Of a stretch of 64,000 bases of DNA, positions 17,698 to 22,024 are shown piece by piece. The notes under the pieces were generated by a model. The model saw only the letters and a program-made list of their open reading frames with translations. It searched no databases and was not told the origin of the DNA. The DNA is from Sphingomonas anseongensis (lineage in GTDB: Bacteria > Pseudomonadota > Alphaproteobacteria > Sphingomonadales > Sphingomonadaceae). The stretch lies in assembly GCF_023516495.1 (NCBI RefSeq), contig NZ_JAMGBC010000001.1, positions 1,178,001 through 1,242,000 on the forward strand, written 5' to 3'. Position 1 is the first letter of the stretch. Each line of letters starts with the position of its first letter. The translations under genes and the position numbers were made by a program.

Positions 17698-18888
17698 TTA
17701 CTTAGAGATCGAACCGACAACCCCTGCGCCGACGGTCCGGCCGCCTTCGCGGATTGCGAAGCGCAGGCCCTGGTCCATCGCGATCGGGGCGATCAGCTTC
17801 ACGCCGAGGGTGACGTTGTCGCCCGGCATGACCATCTCGGTGCCCTCAGGAAGAACGACCTCGCCGGTCACGTCCGTGGTCCGGAAGTAGAACTGCGGAC
17901 GATAGTTGGCGAAGAACGGCGTGTGACGGCCGCCCTCGTCCTTCGACAGGACGTAGACTTCCGCCTGGAAGTCCGTGTGCGGAGTGATCGAGCCGGGCTT
18001 GGCCAGAACCTGGCCGCGCTCGACTTCTTCACGGCCGACGCCGCGGATCAGAGCGCCGATGTTGTCGCCGGCCTGGCCCTGATCGAGCAGCTTGCGGAAC
18101 ATCTCGACGCCGGTGACGACCGTCTTGGCGGTGTCTTTGATCCCGACGATCTCGACTTCGTCGCCAACCTTGACGATTCCGGTCTCGACGCGGCCCGTGA
18201 CGACGGTTCCGCGGCCCGAGATCGAGAACACGTCCTCGATCGGCATCAGGAACGGCTTGTCGAGCGGACGCTCCGGAGTCGGGATCCACTCGTCGACGGC
18301 GGCCATCAGCTTGAGGATGGCGTCGTGGCCGATCTCGGGGTTCTTGTCCTCGAGCGCGGCGAGAGCCGAACCGGTGACGATCGGAATGTTGTCGCCGTCG
18401 AAGTCGCGCTTGGAAAGCTCCTCGCGGATCTCCAGCTCGACGAGTTCCAGGAGCTCCGGATCGTCGACCTGGTCGACCTTGTTGAGGAAGACCACCATGG
18501 TCGGAACGCCGACCTGCTTGGCGAGCAGGATGTGCTCCTTGGTCTGCGGCATCGGGCCGTCTGCGGCCGACACGACGAGGATCGCGCCGTCCATCTGTGC
18601 GGCGCCGGTGATCATGTTCTTCACATAGTCGGCGTGGCCCGGGCAATCGACGTGGGCGTAGTGGCGCGCAGCCGTTTCATATTCGACGTGAGCGGTCGAA
18701 ATGGTGATTCCGCGCTCGCGCTCCTCGGGGGCTTTGTCGATGTTCGCGTAATCGGTGTACGTGGCGCCGCCCGTCTCGGCCAGCACCTTGGTGATAGCCG
18801 CGGTCAGCGACGTCTTGCCATGGTCGACGTGACCGATGGTCCCGATGTTCACGTGCGGCTTGTTCCGCTCGAATTTAGCCTTCGCCAT
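17698..18888 (-). CDS. tuf: Translation elongation factor Tu
   Basis: A 396-residue EF-Tu, the GTPase that delivers aminoacyl-tRNA to the ribosome. G1 is GHVDHGKT at residues 19-26, G3 DCPGHADY at 81-88, and G4 NKVD at 136-139. Domains 2 and 3 follow ([40 protein letters not shown]). Full normal length. Order rpsL-rpsG-fusA-tuf is standard; this is the only tuf copy in the window. Confidence 0.98.
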
Positions 18889-18962: not shown

Positions 18963-21056
<2,094 letters not shown>

Positions 21057-21122: not shown

Positions 21123-21593
21123 TTACCAGCGGTAGTGGCTGAAGGCGCGGTTCGCCTCGGCCATGCGGTGCGTGTCTTCCCGCTTCTTCACCGCGTTTCC
21201 GCGATTCTGCGAGGCGTCCATCAGCTCGCCCGAAAGCCGGCCGGCCATCGTCTTTTCAGAACGCGCGCGAGCGGCGGTGATCAGCCAGCGGATGGCGAGA
21301 GCCTGGGCGCGCTCCGGGCGAACCTCGACCGGTACCTGGTAGGTGGCGCCGCCAACCCGGCGGGAGCGGACTTCGATGCCCGGCTTCACGTTGTTGAGCG
21401 CGTCGTGAAAGACCGACAGCGGCTCCTTCTTCAGGCGCGCTTCGACATTGTCGAGAGCACCGTAAACGATGTTCTCGGCGACCGACTTCTTGCCGTCCAG
21501 CATGACGCTGTTCATGAACTTGGAGAGGACCTCGTCCCCGAACTTCGGGTCGGGCAGGATCTCGCGCTTCTCGGGGCGACGACGACGGGACAT
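21123..21593 (-). CDS. rpsG: 30S ribosomal protein S7
   Basis: A 156-residue S7, a primary 16S rRNA binder that organises the 30S head. [40 protein letters not shown] and [20 protein letters not shown] are family signatures, and the C-terminus [14 protein letters not shown] is intact. Spacing is 59 nt from rpsL and 66 nt to fusA. Confidence 0.98.
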
Positions 21594-21652: not shown

Positions 21653-22024
21653 TTACTTGGGACGCTTGGCGCCGTACTTGGACCGCGACTGGCGGCGATC
21701 CTTGACACCTTGGGTGTCGAGCACTCCGCGAAGCACGTGATAGCGAACGCCCGGAAGGTCGCGCACGCGCCCGCCGCGGATCAGCACGACGCTGTGCTCC
21801 TGCAGGTTGTGGCCCTCGCCGGGGATGTAGCTGATCACTTCGCGCTGGTTGGTCAGGCGGACCTTCGCAACCTTGCGAAGAGCCGAGTTCGGCTTCTTCG
21901 GGGTCGTCGTATAGACTCGGGTGCAAACTCCGCGCTTCTGCGGATTCTGCTCCATCGCAGGGACCTTCGACTTGGCCTTCTGCGGTTCGCGACCCTTGCG
22001 GATCAGCTGATTAATCGTCGGCAT
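21653..22024 (-). CDS. rpsL: 30S ribosomal protein S12 with Arg at position 88
   Basis: A 123-residue S12 at the decoding centre. The ATG at 22024 gives [16 protein letters not shown], the normal N-terminus; an in-frame GTG four codons upstream is unlikely to be used. The loop [13 protein letters not shown] keeps Lys43, but the second loop reads [13 protein letters not shown], so residue 88 is Arg (CGC codon, 21761-21763) where E. coli has Lys88. The Lys-to-Arg change at this site is a well-known streptomycin-resistance substitution. It is the first gene of the str operon here; rpoC is not upstream. Confidence 0.97.

Follow-up and report, generated by a model that had tools for sequence, protein, structure and literature searches.

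Introduction

Is the arginine at residue 88 of ribosomal protein S12 a native feature of the organism from which this DNA comes, and could it make that organism resistant to streptomycin? The first-pass annotation of the window (the whole 64-kb stretch of DNA analysed) took the residue to be apparently the wild-type state rather than a selected mutation, and proposed it as a possible intrinsic cause of the streptomycin resistance of sphingomonads. Natural resistance has been described in this group. Sphingopyxis granuli TFA and strain Kp5.2 are naturally resistant (PMC4741004), as is Sphingomonas wittichii RW1, which has been grown at 50 ug/ml streptomycin (PMC3425912). In a never-treated orchard, according to earlier work cited in PMC3357425, Sphingomonadales accounted for 100% of the cultured resistant bacteria. 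Zymomonas mobilis tolerates 300 ug/ml streptomycin (PMC2877685). Arginine at RpsL position 87, in a numbering without the initial Met, has been described in Sphingomonadaceae, Erythrobacteraceae and strain TFA, and was proposed as a possible reason for their natural resistance (PMC4741004, BMC Genomics 2016).

The trait has been put to use. Streptomycin has served for selection on the grounds that a natural rpsL mutation makes most Sphingomonas resistant (PMC9907089), and counterselection with the engineered sensitive allele rpsL1 relies on natural resistance (PMC11165598, PMC11837543). In Sphingopyxis granuli, rpsL1 led to slower growth on streptomycin, with streaks equal after 18-20 h, and its effect differs between species (PMC11165598).

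The same exchange is known as a mutation elsewhere. K88R alone gives E. coli a streptomycin MIC of >32,768 mg/L (PMC13390409), and is the exception among first-step rpsL mutations of E. coli, which cost substantial fitness (PMC12416847). The natural streptomycin resistance of Agrobacterium fabrum is enzymatic, through strB; among eight sequenced resistant mutants of a strain without strB, two carried K88R and six K43R (PMC10521367). Our literature search on K88R combined with natural resistance surfaced mycobacterial reports alone, and a search by title, with most subscription journals outside it, found no report on streptomycin-sensitive Sphingomonadaceae.

Results

The window encodes a full-length S12 in an rpsL-rpsG-fusA-tuf cluster (Table 1). 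The open reading frame list starts rpsL at a GTG four codons 5' of the ATG. As the first-pass annotation had read them, residue 88 is Arg and Lys43 is unchanged. The protein is 98% identical to S12 of named Erythrobacter and Croceicoccus. The comparison with E. coli S12, which has Lys at position 88, covers the mutation-table positions given below. A search of the source genome (2,226,119 bases, 2 contigs, 99.95% complete) with the S12 protein gave one rpsL match, and thus no Lys88 S12 is present beside the Arg88 copy.

Table 1. Positions in the window of rpsL, its codons of interest and the neighbouring genes of the cluster.
Feature	Position	Strand	Remarks
rpsL, ribosomal protein S12, 123 aa	21653..22024	minus	ATG at 22024, stop at 21653
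rpsL codon 88, CGC, Arg	21761..21763	minus	streptomycin-resistance residue
rpsL codon 43, AAG, Lys	21896..21898	minus	unchanged; other main streptomycin site
rpsL codon 61, Arg	21842..21844	minus	
rpsG, ribosomal protein S7	21123..21593	minus	used for tree; name by recognition
fusA, elongation factor G	18963..21056	minus	used for tree; name by recognition
tuf, elongation factor Tu	17698..18888	minus	end of rpsL-rpsG-fusA-tuf cluster; name by recognition

Residue numbers count the initial Met and agree with the E. coli mutation table of PMC13390409, in which A263G is K88R and A128C is K43N, and which also includes P42, K44, R86, P91 and G92. The window S12 reads P42, K43, K44, R86, V87, R88, D89, L90, P91 and G92. 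Within positions 42-44 and 86-92, the 95 family sequences described below varied at position 88 alone.

The family is taken here as that of the sphingomonads in a broad sense, including Erythrobacter, as inferred from S12 proteins of named organisms that are 94-98% identical. In an even sampling of this family, 95 of 99 genomes gave an S12 match (G065, G082, G085 and G093 had none); 81 of these proteins have Arg88, 14 have Lys88, and all have Lys43. With 25 new loci from a search of the order and 20 picked genomes, mostly less similar ones and genus mates, the family set reached 140. Comparison of rpsL across the family and its outgroups, as the first-pass annotation had suggested, found Arg88 in 125 of these 140 genomes and Lys88 in 15. 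All 13 genus mates listed by the order search have Arg88. All 19 genomes read from the order's other families (20 stretches fetched, one genome having been drawn twice) have Lys88. Arg88 was likewise absent from the 47 genomes read from the class outside the family, the 27 best-scoring and 20 picked among 161 matching genomes, and 24 of 24 further loci from the phylum (115 matching genomes) combine Lys43 with Lys88. The 80 named loci among the matches listed comprise 73 with Lys88 and seven with Arg88 (Croceicoccus, two Erythrobacter, Sphingobium, Actirhodobacter, a Sphingomonadaceae bacterium and Altererythrobacter), counts that are not independent of the others because some named records appear to duplicate unnamed ones. 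A metagenome-assembled genome labelled Sphingomonadales is one of the 73. Arg88 is therefore a lineage-level, wild-type state. The suggestion that it is lineage-wide holds for one clade (see below) but does not extend to the family, given the 15 Lys88 genomes.

Two irregularities were observed in these searches. One genome of the class (G415, ~0.9 Mb) carries Arg43 together with Lys88, the sole Arg43 among the 20 picked class genomes. In G261 and G156, two weak S12 matches each stood in place of one full match.

Of the 125 Arg88 family genomes, 123 use CGC at codon 88 and two use CGA, with no AGG or AGA; of the 15 Lys88 genomes, 14 have AAG there and one AAA. A stricter motif count over 160 Arg88 loci, repeats included, gave 155 CGC, four CGA and one off-motif locus, which keeps CGC and differs at a neighbouring position. 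CGC matches neither lysine codon, AAG or AAA, at any of its bases, and a lone sequencing error or a lone selected base change therefore does not account for it. That the arginine is a laboratory-selected mutation or a sequencing error at 21761-21763 is extremely improbable, since the same residue occurs in all 13 genus mates and in most of the family genomes read. The three base differences and a state common to the clade also speak against a recent origin by one base change in a sensitive parent.

The history of the residue was read on trees built from rpsG and fusA, with rpsL left out. They hold 69 rows, from genomes with enough sequence fetched: 38 Arg88 genomes of the family (out of 125), all 15 of its Lys88 genomes and 16 of the 19 order genomes. 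A quick tree required one change of residue 88 and gave the Arg88 group an SH-aLRT of 96. A careful tree unites the 38 Arg88 rows, the source genome among them, in a single clade (UFBoot 100 / SH-aLRT 99), and 100% of 200 bootstrap trees contain a branch that separates the Arg88 group from all other rows. On the careful tree two changes are needed for the Lys88 family rows, which thus are not one group. With the order genomes as outgroup, the quick tree placed 11 of the 15 Lys88 rows as sister to the Arg88 clade and four outside both; one Lys88 row (L243), on a long branch, is of unsure placement. Because the Arg88 rows are one clade on an outgroup-rooted tree, Arg88 is derived and has a single origin in the sample. 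In the genomes compared, Arg88 replaced Lys88 once inside the family. The source genome has Arg88, Lys43 and a place in the Arg88 clade, and so carries the published sphingomonad rpsL trait.

The Arg88 clade also contains an unresolved early branch, a 2.1-Mb genome (G024) with Arg88 and 49.8% G+C around rpsL.

Arg88 is accompanied by other changes in S12. All 125 Arg88 family sequences carry Arg61, as do all seven named Arg88 loci among the matches listed. Arg61 is found in none of 134 Lys88 sequences (15 from the family, 19 from the order, 27 from the class and 73 named loci among the matches listed), in 107 of which position 61 is Phe or Tyr. Ser19 is also found in all 125 Arg88 family sequences, but is shared by 39 of the 73 named Lys88 loci among the matches listed. 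Since the Arg88 tree rows stem from one branch, the company of Arg61 and Arg88 is a single event, which alone is no evidence of coupling.

The Asp adjoining residue 88 is the site of methylthio modification by RimO. A tie between Arg88 and loss of RimO was considered and rejected, as RimO matched above the cut-off in 92 of 99 family genomes, the source genome included. The seven without one comprise four Lys88 genomes (G005, G007, G022 and G097), two Arg88 genomes (G018 and G025) and G082, which gave no rpsL match. In the even family sample these genomes, mostly fragmented or incomplete assemblies (G005 is not), make up 4 of 14 Lys88 and 2 of 81 Arg88 genomes.

The source genome was also searched for other routes to resistance. 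The APH(6) family had no match in it; this control is weak, with one of 14 control genomes matched, below the cut-off. A search for AadA_C found no match in the source genome, but as none of the control genomes was matched either, this carries no weight. The rsmG gene is present as an uninterrupted frame of 211 aa. The 16S rRNA search found none in the source genome and none in 5 of 14 control genomes, and an Rfam search over the 64-kb window at gathering thresholds gave one tRNA.

Discussion

The window very probably encodes the ordinary S12 of a sphingomonad belonging to the Arg88 clade. In this reading Arg took the place of Lys88 a single time, in an ancestor within the family, and has persisted. 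Judging from other species, Arg88 would lie in a loop of S12 next to where streptomycin binds the 30S subunit, and there it may weaken drug binding or drug effect at little growth cost. If so, the source organism should be streptomycin-resistant with no need for a resistance enzyme. We strongly infer that it is resistant. The proposal that Arg88 is the intrinsic cause gains support from the sufficiency of K88R in E. coli (PMC13390409); it is not a new idea, having been put in print before (PMC4741004), and for this organism the causal step is an extrapolation from other species.

It is unlikely that Arg88 is an incidental neutral change and that natural resistance comes mainly from the rRNA, uptake, efflux or a modifying enzyme. 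Such a reading could draw on the other S12 changes that accompany Arg88, above all Arg61, and on the 16S rRNA of the source genome, which escaped the search. The natural resistance of Agrobacterium fabrum is indeed enzymatic (PMC10521367), and the sensitivity conferred by rpsL1 varied by species and was partial in Sphingopyxis granuli (PMC11165598). However, K88R alone suffices in E. coli (PMC13390409) and was selected in an alphaproteobacterium, Agrobacterium (PMC10521367). That rpsL1 renders naturally resistant sphingomonads more sensitive (PMC11165598) indicates that S12 matters. The APH(6) result for the source genome points the same way, within its weak control.

A different question is why Arg88 was fixed. 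It may have been fixed, perhaps jointly with Arg61, for its effect on ribosome function, such as the accuracy or speed of decoding, and resistance would then be a by-product that played no part in the fixation. This is a tentative proposal about the reason for fixation, somewhat less probable than its opposite, and it is compatible with the preferred explanation, a single replacement that was then kept. Many genera of the family sample fall within the Arg88 clade, no Arg88 sequence in the sample lacks Arg61, and K88R has no substantial fitness cost in E. coli (PMC12416847). On the other side, Arg61 and Arg88 on one branch count as a single event, and the data do not separate cause from by-product. 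The combined proposition that a large clade fixed Arg88 once with Arg61 as its partner change, and that Lys88 lineages of the same family are sensitive and so have been overlooked by streptomycin enrichment, seems to us evenly balanced.

The Arg88 trait and its causal proposal are already known. The Arg87 trait of PMC4741004 is the same in residue, lineage and proposed consequence; where the accessible text of that paper speaks of both families in general, 15 of the 140 genomes compared here have Lys88 and the origin lies on one branch. The known trait is refined here by the Lys88 lineages and the single origin. This refinement was not met in the parts of the literature covered, to which no dedicated search contributed. 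The K88R mutants of E. coli (PMC13390409) and Agrobacterium (PMC10521367) share the residue and the exchange, but, as described there, arose by mutation in sensitive parents (A263G in E. coli), whereas Arg88 here is clade-wide and encoded by CGC or CGA. Selection with streptomycin (PMC9907089) is an applied method with the same basis, natural resistance attributed to rpsL; rpsL1 counterselection (PMC11165598) is also an applied method, with an engineered sensitive allele.

Arg88 would explain why streptomycin serves as a selective agent for sphingomonads. For the natural rpsL mutation in Sphingomonas, PMC9907089 cites Vanbroekhoven 2004. By the same reasoning, Lys88 lineages of the family are predicted to be missed by streptomycin enrichment and to be unsuited to rpsL counterselection. 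Resistance-gene scans that flag rpsL K88R in genomes of the Arg88 clade would report the normal state, not acquired resistance. In lake metagenome-assembled genomes, 31 rpsL genes with resistance mutations have been reported, other groups included (PMC9726936).
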